Below, piece after piece: positions 33,798 to 40,128 of a DNA stretch of 64,000 bases. Origin of the DNA: Jatrophihabitans cynanchi (GTDB lineage Bacteria > Actinomycetota > Actinomycetes > Mycobacteriales > Jatrophihabitantaceae); the NCBI RefSeq assembly GCF_027247405.1, contig NZ_CP097463.1, positions 2,666,001-2,730,000 of the forward strand, in the 5' to 3' direction. The position numbers and the translations under genes were made by a program. The notes under the pieces are model-generated. The model saw only the letters and a program-made list of their open reading frames with translations. It did no database searches and was not told the origin of the DNA. How positions within the stretch are numbered: the stretch's first letter is position 1; each line of letters starts with the position of its first letter.

Positions 33798-34529
33798 CTA
33801 GCGGCCCGGGTCCGCCGCCGGATCGCGGCTGGCCGACTCGTGACCGGCGCGACCGGACGGTTCGGGCGGGCGGACGAACTTGTAGCCGACGTTGCGCACG
33901 GTGCCGATCATCGCGTCGTGCTCGGGTCCGAGCTTGGCGCGCAGCCGGCGAACGTGCACGTCGACGGTGCGCGTGCCGCCGAAGTAGTCATAGCCCCAGA
34001 CCTCCTGGACGAGGTGCGAGCGGCTGAACACCCGGCCGGGGTGCTGGGCGAGGAACTTCAGCAGCTCGAACTCCTTGTAGGTCAGGTCGAGCGGGGTACC
34101 GGACAGCCGTGCGCTGTAGGTGCTCTCGTCGATCGTCAGTTCGCCGATGTCGACCTGATCCGGCGTCGGGTTCTCCCGCAGGGTGGTGCGTTCCACGGCC
34201 AGCCGCAGCCGGGCGTCCAGCTCGGCGGGACCGGCGGTGTCCAGCACGAAGTCATCGACGGCCCACTCGGCGGACACCGCGATCAGGCCGCCCTCGGTCA
34301 GCACCGCGATCACCGGCACGGCGAGCTCGGCGGCGGCGAGCACCCGGGTGAACGTGCGGGCAGCAGCGAGATCGCGGCGGGCGTCGAGCAGGATCACGTC
34401 CCCGGCGTTGCGGTCGACGAGCGCGGCGGCGTCCAACGGCAGGACGCTCACCCGGTGCGGCAGCAGGCCGAGGGCGGGCAGTACTTCGGTGGTCGGCTGG
34501 CTGGCGGTGGTGAGCAGGCTGAGGTCCAC
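33798..34529 (-). CDS. glnR: GlnR-type atypical OmpR-family regulator of nitrogen metabolism
   Basis: 243 residues from the GTG at 34529 (GGAGG 8 bases upstream). The N-terminal receiver keeps only the central aspartate region VILLDARRD (about residue 49) and lacks the acidic pair of beta-1 and the lysine, as in orphan GlnR. The C-terminal winged helix is standard: [54 protein letters not shown] (positions about 150-205). In actinobacteria GlnR activates glnA, amt and nitrogen-assimilation genes without a kinase. No kinase is adjacent. Position next to mshD is the actinobacterial signature for GlnR. Confidence 0.88.
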
Positions 34530-34601
34530 GCACGCCTCCGGTGGGCAGAGGAGGTGGGCCGCGCTGCCCGGACGAACTTGTTGCACGAGACAATACCGGT
34601 C

Positions 34602-35396: not shown

Positions 35397-36240
35397 CAGC
35401 GACGAGCCGGTGCCGGCCGAGGGCGTCGAGCGCGTCCAGGCCGGCTCGCTCGTGCTCGCCGCGGTCGTCGGCGTCGGGCTGGCGGTAGCTGCCCGCACCA
35501 ACGCGCTCGCCCTGTTGATCGCCGTCGCCGTCACCCAAGCGCTGCTCGCCGCCGGATGGGTGTTCTGCAGCCGGATGCCCGGGCGTAAGGGCGCGCTCGT
35601 GCTCGCCGCGTTGGCCGCCGCGGGCGCGGACGTCTCGGTGTCGATCTGGCCGCACGGCAAGCTGGGTACCCTGCTCGCCGTGCTCGGCCTCGCCGTGCCG
35701 CTGCTGTTCATCCACCAGCTGATGCGCGGTGCCGCGCGCAGCCGAATCGTCCAGTCACTGAGCGGCATCGCGCTGCTCGTGCTCGCCGAGGTGGCCCTCG
35801 CCGCCCTGCTCCAGCTGCGCCACGAGTTCGGCGGCCAGACCGGCGGCCGGGTGGTGGCCGGGGTGGTGGCCGCGGCCGCCGGCGCGCTCGTCGTCGGCTA
35901 CCTCGTCGACCTGATCGCGCCGCTGCCGCGCTTCGACCCCGACGTGCCGCGCGGGCTGCTCGGCGTGGTCGCCTCGGCGGGGCTGGGTGGGTCGCTCGGC
36001 TACCTGCTGCTGCAGTCCGACCGGCTCGGCACCTTCGCAAGCGGCCGGGGCGCGTTCATCGGGGCCTCGCTCGGCGCGCTGGTCGGCTTGCTCGCCGTCG
36101 CGGTCGCGTTCGCCGAGCGCGAACTGCCGGTGCGTGCCGACGGTGCCGGGCAGCGATGGCGCCCGTTCGTCGGCGTGCTGGTGCCGATCAGCGTCCTTGC
36201 CCCGGTGGCCTTCCTGCTCTGCCTGGCCATCCGCACCTGA
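35380..36240 (+). CDS. Polytopic membrane protein, function unknown
   Basis: 286 residues from the ATG at 35380 (GTG at 35389 is an alternative), with roughly eight hydrophobic segments and very small loops. It starts with a polar tail [18 protein letters not shown], then SLVLAAVVGVGLAVAA; a conserved-looking HGKLGTLLAVLGLAVPLLFIHQLMRG lies near the middle and PLPRFDPDVPRG in the last third. No family recognised. Coupled to the hydrolase before it by overlap. It separates glnR from the sulfurtransferase operon, where mycobacteria have a thioredoxin-like and an exported-protein gene. Confidence 0.72.
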   Translation: MRHVTDSDEPVPAEGVERVQAGSLVLAAVVGVGLAVAARTNALALLIAVAVTQALLAAGWVFCSRMPGRKGALVLAALAAAGADVSVSIWPHGKLGTLLAVLGLAVPLLFIHQLMRGAARSRIVQSLSGIALLVLAEVALAALLQLRHEFGGQTGGRVVAGVVAAAAGALVVGYLVDLIAPLPRFDPDVPRGLLGVVASAGLGGSLGYLLLQSDRLGTFASGRGAFIGASLGALVGLLAVAVAFAERELPVRADGAGQRWRPFVGVLVPISVLAPVAFLLCLAIRT

Positions 36241-36319
36241 GCGGGCCGTGCCTACCGCGCCCGAGCGGCCCGGGCCTACGCGCCGGAGCGGCTTTCGCCG
36301 ATCGGCTACTGTGAGCGCC

Positions 36320-36415
36320 ATGGGCATCTCGCTCGTTGCCGTGGGTGTCGCACTCACGTCCCGCCGCACGGTCGACCTGTGCCGTGTGGGCAGCTGCCTG
36401 TGTCGCATGCGCTGA
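36320..36415 (+). CDS. Cysteine-rich leader peptide (31 aa) upstream of the sulfurtransferase operon
   Basis: ATG at 36320 encodes 31 residues: a hydrophobic start (MGISLVAVGVALT), then SRRTVDLCRVGSCLCRMR with three cysteines in the last ten residues. TACTGT (36307-36312) ends 7 bases before the ATG, so the transcript should be leaderless. It is followed by a GC hairpin at 36429 and, 161 bases later, cysA-sseC. Leaderless Cys-rich short ORFs ahead of sulfur genes act as cysteine attenuators in mycobacteria, where ribosomes stall when Cys-tRNA is short and relieve repression of the operon. This one has the same layout, so I infer the same role. Confidence 0.8.
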   Translation: MGISLVAVGVALTSRRTVDLCRVGSCLCRMR

Positions 36416-36428
36416 CCGGGTGACACCG

Positions 36429-36441
36429 GGGGCTCCGCCCC
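36429..36441 (+). promoter_or_regulatory. Short GC hairpin after the leader peptide (possible attenuator element)
   Basis: GGGGC (36429-36433) and GCCCC (36437-36441) flank a 3-base loop 14 bases past the leader stop. Too short to be decisive alone, but it is where a ribosome-controlled attenuator would be expected before cysA. Confidence 0.35.
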
Positions 36442-36576
36442 GCCGCACGCTGGCCCGTCCACCGTTGCGCCTTGCGTCTCATCCGGTTTCCCACCCCGCC
36501 GCCCGCCACCGTCGTGGCGTTCCGGCGGTGCGCCCACATCCCCATCCCGTCACATCCACTTCGAGGAGAGCAACCC

Positions 36577-37410
36577 ATGGCCCGCGCTGACGTGCTGGTC
36601 TCGGCCGATTGGGCCGAGGAGAATCTGAACACCCCTGGTGTCGTGTTCGTCGAGGTCGACGAAGACACCTCCGCGTACGACGGCGGCCACCTCGCCGGCG
36701 CCGTGAAGCTGGACTGGAAGACCGACCTGCAGGACCAGGTCCGCCGCGACTTCGTGAACAAGGAGCAGTTCGAGGCGCTGCTCGGCGCGAAGGGCATCGG
36801 CAACGACGACACCGTCGTGCTGTACGGCGGCAACAACAACTGGTTCGCGTCCTACGCGTACTGGTACTTCAAGCTGTACGGGCACGAGAACGTCAAGCTG
36901 CTCGACGGCGGCCGCAAGAAGTGGGAACTCGACGGCCGTGAGCTGAGCAAGGACACCGTGCAGCGCCCGGCCACGAGCTACACGGCCAAGGAGCAGGACC
37001 TGTCCATCCGCGCGTTCCGCGACGAGGTCCTCGACTCGATCGGCAAGCAGAACCTGGTCGATGTGCGCTCGCCCGACGAGTTCTCCGGAAAGCTGCTCGC
37101 GCCGGCGCACCTGCCGCAGGAGCAGAGCCAGCGCGGCGGGCACATCCCGAGCGCGCTGAACGTCCCGTGGAGCAAGGCCGCGAACGAGGACGGCACGTTC
37201 AAGTCGGACGAGGAACTGCGCGCGCTCTACGCGGACCAGGGCCTGGACGAGGCCAAGGACACCATCGCGTACTGCCGTATCGGCGAGCGCTCCAGCCACA
37301 CCTGGTTCGCGCTGCACGAGCTGCTCGGCCACCAGAACGTGAAGAACTACGACGGCTCGTGGACCGAGTACGGCTCGCTGGTCGGCGTCCCGATCGAGAA
37401 GGGTGCCTGA
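36577..37410 (+). CDS. cysA: Thiosulfate sulfurtransferase (tandem rhodanese)
   Basis: 277 residues forming two rhodanese domains. The first is structural ([25 protein letters not shown]), the second carries the persulfide cysteine in [12 protein letters not shown] (Cys233), a CRIGER active-site loop typical of thiosulfate sulfurtransferases. It transfers sulfur from thiosulfate to thiols or cyanide. GAGGAGAG lies before the ATG. SseC follows directly (1 base between stop and start), as in the mycobacterial cysA2-sseC2 pair, and a Cys-rich leader precedes it, so the operon should respond to cysteine supply. Confidence 0.95.
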
Positions 37411-37411
37411 C

Positions 37412-37711
37412 ATGTGCGGTGCTCCGGCCCAGACCCCCACGCTGCCCGCGGGCGTCGACCTCGAAACCGAGACGGTGATCTACGGCGTCGTGAGCAAGGA
37501 CGGCGCGCCCGTCCCGTCGGCCTATGTCCGGCTGCTCGACGCGAGCGGGGAGTTCACCGCAGAGGTGGTCACGTCCGCCACGGGTGACTTCCGGTTCTTC
37601 GCCGCGCCCGGCGACTGGACGCTGTCGGTGCTGCACAAGGACGGCAAGGTGCGCCAGCAGGTCCACGCCGCCGCGCCGGGCCTGACCGAGGCGTCGCTGC
37701 ACCTCCGATAA
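37412..37711 (+). CDS. sseC: SseC-type protein (DUF1416)
   Basis: 99 residues, beginning MCGAPAQTPTLPAGVDLETETVIYGVV and continuing as a small all-beta (transthyretin/carboxypeptidase-regulatory-like) domain with AYVRLLDASGEFTAEVVTSATGDFRFFAAPGDWTLSVLH (in part). DUF1416 proteins accompany thiosulfate sulfurtransferases in actinobacteria and are thought to support thiosulfate use, without a demonstrated activity. Stop and start are separated by one base from cysA, so translation is coupled. The conserved N-terminal cysteine (Cys2) could carry sulfur. Confidence 0.92.
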   Translation: MCGAPAQTPTLPAGVDLETETVIYGVVSKDGAPVPSAYVRLLDASGEFTAEVVTSATGDFRFFAAPGDWTLSVLHKDGKVRQQVHAAAPGLTEASLHLR

Positions 37712-37716
37712 CCCGA

Positions 37717-37759
37717 TCGTGCAACCTCCTGCGGGCGCACGCCGCGGGAGGTTGCACGA
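37717..37759. terminator. Strong hairpin terminator after cysA-sseC
   Basis: Arms 37717-37734 and 37742-37759 pair over 18 positions with one G-U wobble around a 7-base loop. The arm carries CCGATCGTGCAAC, the same block as the purA terminator at 3729. It starts 6 bases past the sseC stop and has no T-tract. Confidence 0.8.
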
Positions 37760-37781
37760 CCAGGTGGCATATCCTGCCGGT

Positions 37782-37880
37782 ATGGAAGCGACCTATCTCG
37801 TCATCCTGATCGCGACGTTCGTGGCGATCACCGTCGTGTCGCTCTACATCGTGGCCAAGCTCTACTCCGGTCAGCGGTGA
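37782..37880 (+). CDS. Possible 32-residue single-helix membrane protein
   Basis: ATG at 37782 opens a 32-codon ORF, MEATYLVILIATFVAITVVSLYIVAKLYSGQR, whose middle is one clean transmembrane helix and whose end is basic. TATCCT (37770-37775) ends 6 bases before the ATG, a leaderless promoter. It lies between a terminator hairpin and the nitrobindin-like gene, 25 bases ahead of the latter, so it may be its leader or an independent small protein. Not shown to be conserved. Confidence 0.5.
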   Translation: MEATYLVILIATFVAITVVSLYIVAKLYSGQR

Positions 37881-37905
37881 GCCGGGCGGACGGCGCGGCA
37901 GCTCG

Positions 37906-38430
37906 GTGAACGCACCGGTCGCCGACACCGCGGATCTGCGCACCGGGGTGCCGATCCACGACGCGTTGCTCGCACTGCTGCCCCTCGTCGGGCGCTGGGA
38001 GGGTGGCGGCGATGGGGTCGTCGCCTCGACGGGCGCGCAGTTCCGGTACCGCCAGCAGCTGAGCTTCGTGCACGACGGACGGCCGTTCCTGGCCTACGAG
38101 GCCCGTTCCTGGCTGGTCGACGAGGCGGGCGAGACGATCCGGCTGGCCTGGCGTGAGTCCGGGTTCTGGCGTCCGGGCGGCGGACAGGACGATGTCGAGG
38201 CGGTGATCTCGTCCAACACCGGGCAGGCGCTGCTGTACGTCGGAGTGGCCGGCGATCAGCGCTGGGACCTGCGCTCCATCTCGGCGGTGCCGACCCCGAC
38301 CGCGCGCGAGGTCGACGGCGAGCGGCGGCTGTACGCGGTGGTCGGCACCGAGCTGGTCTACGCGACCGAACTCGCCCCGGCCGGCCGGCCCTATGCGGCG
38401 CACCTGAACGCGCGGCTGGCCCGGGTCTGA
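37906..38430 (+). CDS. Nitrobindin-like FABP-fold heme protein (DUF1794)
   Basis: 174 residues with a ten-strand beta-barrel signature: LLPLVGRWEGGGDGVV (about 21-36, GxWxGxG), RYRQQLSFVHDGRPFLAYEARSW (in part) and GFWRPGGG. The barrel ends with PYAAHLNARLARV, whose histidine is in the place of the nitrobindin proximal heme ligand. Nitrobindins bind ferric heme and isomerise peroxynitrite. GTG start at 37906. It follows the sulfurtransferase operon as in mycobacteria, and a TetR gene converges 13 bases after it. Confidence 0.86.
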   Translation: MNAPVADTADLRTGVPIHDALLALLPLVGRWEGGGDGVVASTGAQFRYRQQLSFVHDGRPFLAYEARSWLVDEAGETIRLAWRESGFWRPGGGQDDVEAVISSNTGQALLYVGVAGDQRWDLRSISAVPTPTAREVDGERRLYAVVGTELVYATELAPAGRPYAAHLNARLARV

Positions 38431-38443
38431 CCGGCGGGGAAGC

Positions 38444-39103
38444 TCAGTCCGGCAGCGCCATGTCGGCGTCCAGCTCGAGACCGAGCGTGCTCCCCATGTT
38501 CTCGATGATCAGCCACACCTGGGTGCTGAGCGCCTCGGTCAGCTCCGACCGCGGCACGTCGCGGTGTTCCAGCCACCAGGCCGCGCTGGCGTCGACCATC
38601 CCCACCACGCCCACCATCACCCGCTCGGCAGGAGCGGTGGCGGCCCCCAGCAGGCGCAGGTAGTGCTGCACCAGCGCGGTGAGCTCGGCGGCGAAGACCG
38701 ACTTCGCGTCCGCGGTACTCGCGTCCTTGGCCGGGACGGCATACGCGTGCTGGGCGAGGAAGCGGTACAGGTTCGGGTGCTCCTCGATCCAGGCCAGGTG
38801 TGCCTCGACGGAAGCGCCGATGATCTGCCGTGGTGAGCCGCGCGTTCCCAGCGCGTGGCGGATCCGGGTGCCGAGCTCGTTCGCGACGTGTGCCGACACG
38901 GCCAGGTCGAGCGCCCGCTTGCCGTCGAAGTGCCGGTACACGTGCGTGCGCGGGACGCCGGCGTACTGCGCGATCTGGCCGGTCAGGGCATCCGGGCCGT
39001 GCTCCTCGATCGCGGTGATCGCGGCGGTGATGATCGCCAGCCGGCGCTCGCGACGGTGCGGGTCCCAGCGGGTCGATCGCCCGTCCCGCGCCCGCTCGGC
39101 CAT
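38444..39103 (-). CDS. TetR-family regulator divergent from the diiron oxygenase
   Basis: 219 residues. The helix-turn-helix is ALTGQIAQYAGVPRTHVYRHFDGKRALDLAV (about 39-69), with YRHFDGKRAL closely matching the TetR consensus. A basic N-terminus (STRWDPHRRERRLAIITAAI) precedes it. The C-terminal domain is a TetR_C-like helical bundle. The gene starts 134 bases from the AurF-like oxygenase on the other strand, and a direct-repeat element lies between; it is the probable regulator of that gene. Confidence 0.92.
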   Translation of the reverse strand: MAERARDGRSTRWDPHRRERRLAIITAAITAIEEHGPDALTGQIAQYAGVPRTHVYRHFDGKRALDLAVSAHVANELGTRIRHALGTRGSPRQIIGASVEAHLAWIEEHPNLYRFLAQHAYAVPAKDASTADAKSVFAAELTALVQHYLRLLGAATAPAERVMVGVVGMVDASAAWWLEHRDVPRSELTEALSTQVWLIIENMGSTLGLELDADMALPD

Positions 39104-39190: not shown

Positions 39191-39237
39191 GGCAGGTAGT
39201 CCTGACGATGAGCGATCCAGGCGAGAGGTGGTCAGCC

Positions 39238-40128
39238 ATGACCGCGGTCCAGAACCTGCAGGCCCGGACGGCCGAGCGGCTGCTCAAGTCGTCGTCCAAG
39301 AACTCCTACGACCCCCAACTCGACATCGACTGGGACGCAGAGATCCCGGACGAACTGGCGTACCTGCCGATGGAGCGGGTCTCGCTGTACGGCACCGCGC
39401 TGTGGGCCGAGATGAGCGAACGGCAGCGTCGCGAGCTGTCCAAGCTGGAGCTGATGAGCGTGGCCGGCACCGGCCTGTGGTTCGAGATCATCCTGATCCA
39501 GATGCTGGCTCGCTACGCCTACCACCAGGACCCGCAGGCCGCGCACACCCAGTACGCGCTGACCGAGATCGGTGACGAGACCCGGCACGTGATCATGTTC
39601 GCGAAGCTGATCAACCGGCTCGGCGCGCCGACCTTGCGGCCGCGGCCGTTCGTGCACAACCTGGCCCGGCTGTACAAGGCGACCGCGCGGGGCGTGTCGG
39701 TGTTCGCGCCGGTGCTGGTCGCCGAGGAGGTCACCGACCGGTTGCAGCGCGCGACGATGAACGACGAAGCGATCAACCCGCTGATCCGCATGGTCAACCG
39801 CATCCACGTGGTGGAGGAGGCGCGGCACGTGCGCTTCGCCCGCGAGGAGGTGGCGAGGCTGATGCCGGGCCTCGGCCCGGTCCGCCGATTCATCGCCACC
39901 ACCGTCTCGGCGGTCTCGGCCGCGTTCGTCATCAGCTCGCTGATCAACCCGGACGTCTACGAGCGGGCCGGCCTCGACAAGCGCCGTGCCGTTCGCGAGG
40001 CGCGCCGCAACCCGCACAACCACGAGACCCGCCGCTGGATGGGCGAGAAGATCATGGCGTTCCTCGGCGAGCAGGGCCTGATCACCTGGAACGCCAAGCC
40101 GATCTACCGCCTGGTGCACCTGATCTGA
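39238..40128 (+). CDS. AurF-like diiron oxygenase
   Basis: 296 residues of the p-aminobenzoate N-oxygenase-like family (PF11583 type). Carboxylate/histidine ligands are visible in EIILIQMLARYAYHQ (about 83-97), EIGDETRHVIMF (about 111-122), APVLVAEEVTDRLQR (about 157-171) and VVEEARHVRFAREE (about 192-205), the E-x-x-H pairs of a ferritin-like four-helix diiron site. The start at 39238 is preceded by GAGAGGTGG; the upstream ATG at 39208 is an alternative. Family members N-oxygenate arylamines or hydroxylate small molecules; the substrate is unknown. Divergent TetR and downstream ABC exporter may belong to the same response. Confidence 0.88.
   Translation: MTAVQNLQARTAERLLKSSSKNSYDPQLDIDWDAEIPDELAYLPMERVSLYGTALWAEMSERQRRELSKLELMSVAGTGLWFEIILIQMLARYAYHQDPQAAHTQYALTEIGDETRHVIMFAKLINRLGAPTLRPRPFVHNLARLYKATARGVSVFAPVLVAEEVTDRLQRATMNDEAINPLIRMVNRIHVVEEARHVRFAREEVARLMPGLGPVRRFIATTVSAVSAAFVISSLINPDVYERAGLDKRRAVREARRNPHNHETRRWMGEKIMAFLGEQGLITWNAKPIYRLVHLI

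Follow-up and report, generated by a model that had tools for sequence, protein, structure and literature searches.

Upstream of a thiosulfate sulfurtransferase operon in the 64,000 nt stretch of Jatrophihabitans cynanchi DNA analysed in this study (the window), a short ORF containing several cysteine codons raises the question whether it senses cysteine on behalf of the operon and, if so, through which output step it acts. A sequence-only reading had interpreted the locus as a leaderless cysteine attenuator with the layout described for mycobacteria. According to the best explanation, which we regard as probable, a leaderless cysteine-sensing leader controls cysA-sseC; its start, its translation, its response to cysteine and the direction of this response are points that we infer from comparison of the sequences. 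The features considered are listed below (positions in the window, basis in parentheses).

36307..36312, + strand: -10 box TACTGT (TANNNT), putative leaderless promoter (7 nt 5' of the leader ATG)
36320..36415, + strand: leader peptide ORF MGISLVAVGVALTSRRTVDLCRVGSCLCRMR (ORF call, NCBIfam matches, conserved ahead of cysA)
36366..36382, + strand: possible P1 hairpin GCACGG-UCGAC-CUGUGC, codons R16 to C21 (codon choice at synonymous stem sites)
36380..36403, + strand: Cys codons 21 (36380-36382), 26 (36395-36397) and 28 (36401-36403) (+1, +6 and +8 after Asp-Leu)
36416..36562, + strand: C-rich, G-poor spacer from the leader stop to the cysA Shine-Dalgarno (SD) sequence, candidate Rho-loading region (base composition)
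36497..36530, + strand: hairpin ahead of the C-rich stretch by the cysA ribosome-binding site (RBS) (z -2.40 for 36495-36540)
36563..36568, + strand: cysA SD sequence GAGGAG (read in the sequence)
36577..37410, + strand: cysA-like thiosulfate/3-mercaptopyruvate sulfurtransferase (rhodanese) gene (Pfam Rhodanese, 121.4 bits)
37412..37711, + strand: sseC-like gene, DUF1416 protein (Pfam DUF1416, 133.4 bits)

The ORF was found as the earlier reading had given it (31 codons, ATG at 36320, stop codon at 36413-36415), as was the -10 hexamer seven bases before its start, and the distance from leader to cysA amounts to 161 nt. Two of the three cysteines that had been placed among the last ten residues lie there, whereas the third is residue 21; the leader contains only these three Cys codons (21, 26 and 28) and no poly-Cys tract. 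The proposed position directly ahead of a thiosulfate sulfurtransferase operon was borne out, the rhodanese gene being followed on the same strand by the gene for the DUF1416 protein, which we take to be of the SseC type.

A described leader family and its recurrence ahead of cysA

Compared with the NCBIfam profile NF042934 ('putative leader peptide'), the window leader scored 28.0 bits (cut-off 27), with all 19 profile positions matched; its score was 26.8 in the genome scan and 27.2 with neighbours. It resembles this cis_reg_atten family in that the whole profile is matched, though with a score close to the cut-off. Against NF042933 ('Ms5788A family Cys-rich leader peptide'), it reached 34.2 bits and stayed below the cut-off of 45. 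One leader each from Jatrophihabitans (36.7) and Geodermatophilus (38.7) likewise fell short of it, and one each from a mycobacterium (56.3) and Catellatospora (61.0) exceeded it. The low NF042933 score of the window leader and the presence of just three Cys codons count as evidence against the best explanation. Rfam gave no match up to E 1 within positions 35500-38500.

For M. tuberculosis and M. smegmatis, the accessible parts of Shell 2015 (PMC4633059) describe a leaderless mRNA on which cysA2 is preceded by a small, conserved ORF whose Cys codons are clustered, with ribosome occupancy at the M. smegmatis locus. Cysteine-responsive attenuation by such ORFs is credited to Canestrari 2020 in the available passages of three later papers (PMC13236596, PMC9094748 and PMC9031893). 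The window leader is like the cysA2 ORF of Shell 2015 and NF042933 in its putative leaderless start, its RRxVDLCR motif, its Cys-rich C-terminus and the operon that it precedes, but unlike the mycobacterial ORF it has three spaced cysteines instead of a poly-Cys tract, and unlike in the mycobacterial arrangement no gene lies between leader and cysA. The mycobacterial attenuator layout that had been attributed to the locus was therefore recovered in part: a leaderless-type, Cys-containing leader of the cysA2 kind (as far as given in PMC4633059) is located ahead of the cysA-sseC operon, but contiguous Cys codons in a poly-Cys tract are missing. Further parallels exist with the trpL, leuL and ilvL attenuators of Streptomyces lividans, which, in the portion of PMC8079986 available, are described as translated, mostly leaderless and rich in the regulatory residue, some S. 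lividans leaders having no Rho-independent terminator; unlike the window leader, however, the eight S. lividans leaders are assigned there to other amino acids and none to cysteine, and those with a printed sequence lack the RxxVDL motif.

Of 69 genomes sampled from across the class, the window genome among them, 48 gave NF042934 matches with E up to 1e-4; the 14 control genomes gave none. The window genome contained one match above the cut-off, and 21 of the 23 other genomes of the window's family contained 2-6 matches each at E up to 0.05. Judged by these comparisons, the window leader is a real, conserved member of an actinobacterial family that has already been described. The expectation that its occurrence outside mycobacteria would broaden the mechanism did not hold, since NF042933 already covers a leader from Micromonosporaceae (that of Catellatospora) and NF042934 is as widespread as stated above; as one more copy of a cysteine-control element conserved in actinobacteria, the leader is a modest finding.

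Loci with related operons were collected by a CysA protein scan, from which the best 80 of 587 named relatives were kept. An R-x-x-VDL leader was present at 75 of these 80 loci and in the window. Four of the five loci missed by the pattern carry a variant leader (IDF three times, VEL once) with the same promoter box, and for the fifth (L042) upstream DNA is missing; among the best 80 of 587 relatives, leader and promoter box preceded cysA at every fetched locus for which upstream DNA was available (79 of 79). The sequence-only reading had proposed looking for the leader in related genomes, and it was found at these 79 loci as well as at 21 of 21 readable loci of the window's family, in which 23 CysA matches were read: 21 with leader (window included), one without upstream DNA and one 54%-identical paralogue without leader. 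Taken as a whole, the recurrence of leader and box is confirmed at the sequence level as more than chance. The leader immediately precedes cysA in the window and at 15 other loci of the 76, and a gene intervenes at the remaining 60, in many cases with a start like VDVRGPRF; the genes with this start presumably encode DUF4395 proteins. The four variant-motif leaders were left out of the codon-choice, fold, Cys, spacer and stalling counts and of the 84 promoter regions given below.

A TANNNT box was located 6-8 nt before the chosen ATG or GTG in 76 of 76 R-x-x-VDL leaders (window included) and, upon a looser inspection, upstream of all four variant-motif leaders; in the window's family, it lay 6-9 nt upstream in 19 of 21 leaders and was absent in two. 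Where several starts were possible, the start having a box was picked, so that box and start are not independent. Only 83 of 2,024 upstream ATG or GTG codons have TANNNT at a distance of 5-9 nt, a number in which the starts of the 76 leaders are necessarily contained. The spacings fit leaderless transcripts because, according to the available text of PMC8079986, the TAnnnT box of S. lividans lies on average 6.3 nt before the transcription start. We infer a leaderless transcript that starts at or next to ATG 36320. Among 84 distinct promoter regions (compared with window positions 36305-36312), no -35 element stood out; a G was observed two bases before TANNNT in 79 of the 84, and the fifth TANNNT position is C in 73 of them and G in the window.

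Of the NF042934 matches without a locus, 40 were fetched. A further set comprised 64 leaders from 70 loci, L165, L178, L179, L180, L198 and L212 having been dropped for lack of the pattern, and a TANNNT box was found for 35 of the 64. That the ORF encodes a small protein with a function of its own, or is spurious, appears very improbable: the peptide is conserved and its translation in this organism is putative, but related leaders stand ahead of different genes, their N-termini and lengths vary, conservation is concentrated toward the C-terminus, and the codons of the possible stem are constrained.

Codon choice and the conserved peptide

The RR-x-VDLC motif was compared in 117 cysA-type leaders, which comprise 75 distinct cores and count the loci L041/L122 and L044/L131 twice. 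All x codons but one (116 of 117) end in a purine, R16 is CGC in 108 of 117 and Leu is CTG in 109 of 117. In the cysA genes, purine-ending codons account for 15% of Thr and 36% of Ala, CGC for 67% of Arg and CTG for 55% of Leu codons. With one locus per taxon (20 taxa), the x codon ended in a purine in 20 of 20 cases (p 2e-12 under cysA codon usage), Arg was CGC in 18 of 18 (p 8e-4) and Leu was CTG in 20 of 20 (p 7e-6), while the next Arg, outside the stem, gave 16 of 20 (p 0.16); these p values ignore shared descent. In the loop, the synonymous positions are not fixed: the third base of both the Val and the Asp codon varies. All six P1 pairs were possible in 81% of the 75 cores, compared with 13% of synonymous versions generated with cysA codon usage.

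The folding energy of the core, irrespective of the structure formed, was better than that of synonymous shuffles for the cysA type (mean z -1.81 over 76 distinct cores, p<0.1 in 72% of them) and for the RLH type (19 cores, mean z -1.52). The RRH[VI]DL type showed no stronger fold than expected from synonymous shuffles (38 cores, mean z -0.36), so that a stronger-than-expected core fold is not common to all leader types. No covariation of P1 exceeded the shuffle control, all changes being one-sided, so the case for P1 is made by codon choice only. The codon choice at the P1 sites itself is firm; it likely reflects the RNA stem P1, with a cause other than RNA pairing as a possible alternative.

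Full-length folds were computed for 70 loci, 6 of the 76 having been left out for a weak SD sequence; lineage groups here and for the spacers were assigned from record titles, except that L065 (labelled Nocardia) was placed by its sequence in the Saccharothrix/Lentzea group and L118 (labelled 'UNVERIFIED_ORG: Bacillus') was counted with Geodermatophilaceae. P1 had a mean probability of at least 0.8 in 44 of the 70 folds, namely in every Nocardia (28) and every Mycobacterium locus (12), in 3 of 4 Geodermatophilaceae and in 1 other. It stayed below 0.1 in 20 (all 6 Micromonosporaceae, 5 of 5 Pseudonocardiaceae and 9 of 10 of the Saccharothrix/Lentzea group), and the window had a value of 0.50. 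For 36359-36388, the best fold contains a stem in a shifted register instead of P1, and at least four P1 pairs occurred in the own best fold of 51 of 75 cores. In several lineages, structures other than P1 are thus predicted to win. The recount by lineage leaves the odds of the main reading unchanged because this reading is independent of both P1 and the output step.

The eighth residue after Asp-Leu (DL+8) is Cys in 159 of 159 distinct leaders, an invariance that arises partly by construction, since the leaders were taken with a motif-containing pattern, the 76 cysA leaders by CysA homology plus the R-x-x-VDL pattern and the non-cysA leaders also by the NF042934 profile and a required Cys. 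The same Cys is kept in 4 of 4 variant-motif cysA leaders. After Asp-Leu, cysA-type leaders have 2-8 Cys residues, and 42 of 61 leaders of other types have just one. These observations bear on a different reading of the sensor, in which the nascent peptide R-x-x-[VI]-D-L-x-R, set at a constant spacing from a single Cys, acts through the exit tunnel and assists stalling, in place of the counting of Cys codons. The constant DL+8 Cys and the many non-cysA-type leaders with a single Cys after Asp-Leu would agree with it, and the RRH[VI]DL type, which keeps its peptide with varied codons and no stronger fold, speaks for selection on the peptide. Given that the invariance is partly due to the selection pattern, that shared descent alone produces some conservation and that four cysA leaders deviate (IDF in three, VEL in one), one of which also lacks the following Arg, we nevertheless judge this reading unlikely. 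Similarly doubtful is its extension to the whole family, namely a nascent-chain-assisted sensor in which the codons of the cysA branch double as a hairpin and the output has been rewired, with RBS unmasking in Nocardia and some Mycobacterium and early termination within a C-rich spacer in the window's family. In a literature search by title and start of abstract, without the motif itself as query term, no paper was found to mention the RxxVDL motif or to interpret it as acting in the nascent chain.

Candidate output steps between leader and cysA

In the preferred reading, that of a cysteine-sensing leader, a leaderless transcript would begin at or beside ATG 36320 and ribosomes would translate the 31-codon leader. 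With enough cysteinyl-tRNA, the ribosome would complete the leader at 36413, structure within the ORF could re-form, the C-rich 147-nt spacer would be free of ribosomes, and expression of cysA-sseC would be low. When cysteine is short, the ribosome would pause at Cys codons 21-28 and keep the hairpin within the ORF open; the pause would alter the options of the RNA just downstream, such that the operon is expressed for sulfur transfer from thiosulfate or mercaptopyruvate.

One candidate for the output step is the mechanism of pure translation attenuation, in which an RNA structure, as reportedly in mycobacteria, masks the ribosome-binding site of the first gene until a ribosome that stalls on the Cys codons sets this site free. 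The window SD sequence is predicted to be 93% paired, which would agree with masking. Its predicted partner is, however, the 5' end of the leader (0.85) and not the Cys tract (0.00), and thus lies outside the footprint of a ribosome at Cys codons 21-28; the pairing of Cys tract and SD of the mycobacterial attenuator is not predicted in the window. Equally good pairing between leader and SD was reached by 15% of 60 synonymous shuffles, and the corresponding value was at most 0.15 among 18 relatives, so that RBS masking by the leader 5' end was not retained for the window.

Among the 28 Nocardia loci, 24 are predicted to pair the SD with the Cys tract at 0.5 or more; for Mycobacterium the count is 7 of 12, and in the window's family 3 of 19 leaders exceed 0.5. 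The pairing of the real Cys tract was matched by less than 5% of shuffles at only 3 of 28 loci (chosen by hand), so support for masking outside the window's family is moderate. Stalling was simulated by excluding from pairing the bases under a ribosome positioned at a Cys codon and recomputing SD accessibility. A gain in accessibility of more than 0.2 resulted at 19 of 28 Nocardia (from a mean of 0.14 to 0.43), 4 of 12 Mycobacterium (from a mean of 0.24 to 0.39) and 2 of the other 30 loci; in the window's family, where accessibility changed from 0.37 to 0.42 overall, 3 of 19 loci showed such a rise, and the window itself changed from 0.07 to 0.13. In a hand-picked set of 16 Nocardia and Mycobacterium loci (10 of 16 rose), Cys-tract pairing had already been predicted in all, so this choice was biased and the counts from all loci with an SD are used here; repeating the simulation over all loci weakened the contrast for Mycobacterium. 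Masking of the SD by the Cys tract and its release by stalling are hence not predicted for the window. Although the available passages of the later citing papers mention that M. smegmatis regulates cysteine genes by translation attenuation, and although the Nocardia and Mycobacterium predictions favour it, we consider it rather unlikely that the window shares this output step, in view of the location of the SD partner, the small change upon simulated stalling, the shuffle results and the few loci at which shuffles were beaten even elsewhere.

A second candidate is early termination in the spacer. No GC hairpin with a subsequent T run, as expected of an intrinsic terminator, was found at 36200-36600. 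The GC hairpin that had been claimed after the leader stop was no more stable than shuffles (36413-36450, z +0.76; 36413-36476, z +1.30) and was discarded as a terminator, as it is not followed by a T run either; the whole region from leader to cysA also folds no better than shuffles (z +0.87). The listed hairpin near the cysA RBS was equalled by 2 of 200 shuffles (36495-36540), an uncorrected figure for a stretch chosen by eye. In Micromonosporaceae (L078, L082, L096, L101, L113 and L119), the final Cys codons together with the bases past the stop resemble a GC-rich hairpin by eye, and a T run follows in some loci, also by eye; in that lineage, the leader possibly is a true transcription attenuator.

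Rho prefers C-rich, G-poor RNA. The window spacer has fractions of 0.48 C and 0.26 G (36416-36560), and C exceeded G in the last 60 nt of the spacer in 18 of 19 members of the window's family (window included) and in 75 of 75 spacers across lineages, with 1 of 76 left out (<25 nt after trimming) and the spacer end uncertain in 6 loci with a weak SD. The mean difference C-G was +0.128 in 74 fetched spacers vs -0.009 in 100 other upstream regions taken as controls from these loci (Mann-Whitney p 8e-18), a bias that is suggestive only because the control regions may be largely untranscribed; a C-G of 0.2 was reached by 1 of 34 upstream regions in the window (that of cysA not being singled out). 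In M. tuberculosis, a uORF with Rho-dependent termination has been described (PMC12810186, accessible part). Against termination speaks that most of the C-rich spacer stays uncovered when a ribosome is stalled at the Cys codons, so that stalling alone does not account for reduced termination. As a tentative preference, held with less than even confidence, early (perhaps Rho-dependent) termination in the spacer seems more likely in the window's family than unmasking of the cysA RBS. There is a hint from these predictions that the output step may differ from that described in mycobacteria.

The comparison established the leader, its promoter box and their conservation before cysA. To earlier work, with Canestrari 2020 compared through citing papers, it adds the P1-compatible codon constraint, the constant DL+8 Cys, the excess of C over G in the spacer and a lineage dependence of predicted stalling. 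It makes testable whether or not the stall is set by the peptide motif beyond the supply of Cys codons, whether the hairpin encoded by the same codons is relevant, and whether one sensor is coupled to different output steps by lineage.

Other leader-like ORFs and neighbouring genes

A further leaderless-looking ORF with four Cys residues, VICTRCTGLVGKMIPMLCQCRAMRHLMA, was encountered in the window genome (G000:C1:822487-822570, - strand; L217, also L213). It has a TATGCT box 6 nt before its GTG and lies ~120 nt upstream of a sulfite/nitrite reductase gene that is followed by a cysH-type gene. The RxxVDL motif is absent from it, and no NCBIfam family was matched. Among 121 genomes, no convincing relatives were detected (best non-self match, E 0.0099), and none of the six matches read was seen before a sulfite reductase.

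Leaders of the RLHVDLCR type (L159, L173, L174, L192 and L199) precede genes whose products start with MAIEVRIPTILR and look ThiS/MoaD-like by eye. In four of these five leaders, the Arg codon is AGG, where AGG extends the hairpin CUGCAC/GUGCAG.

The operon of the window is located near genes for a GlnR-type regulator (33801-34586, - strand) and a THAP4-like heme-binding protein (37906-38427, + strand), similar to neighbours in the cysA2 region of M. tuberculosis. An AurF-type p-aminobenzoate N-oxygenase gene is present at 39226-40125 (+ strand).
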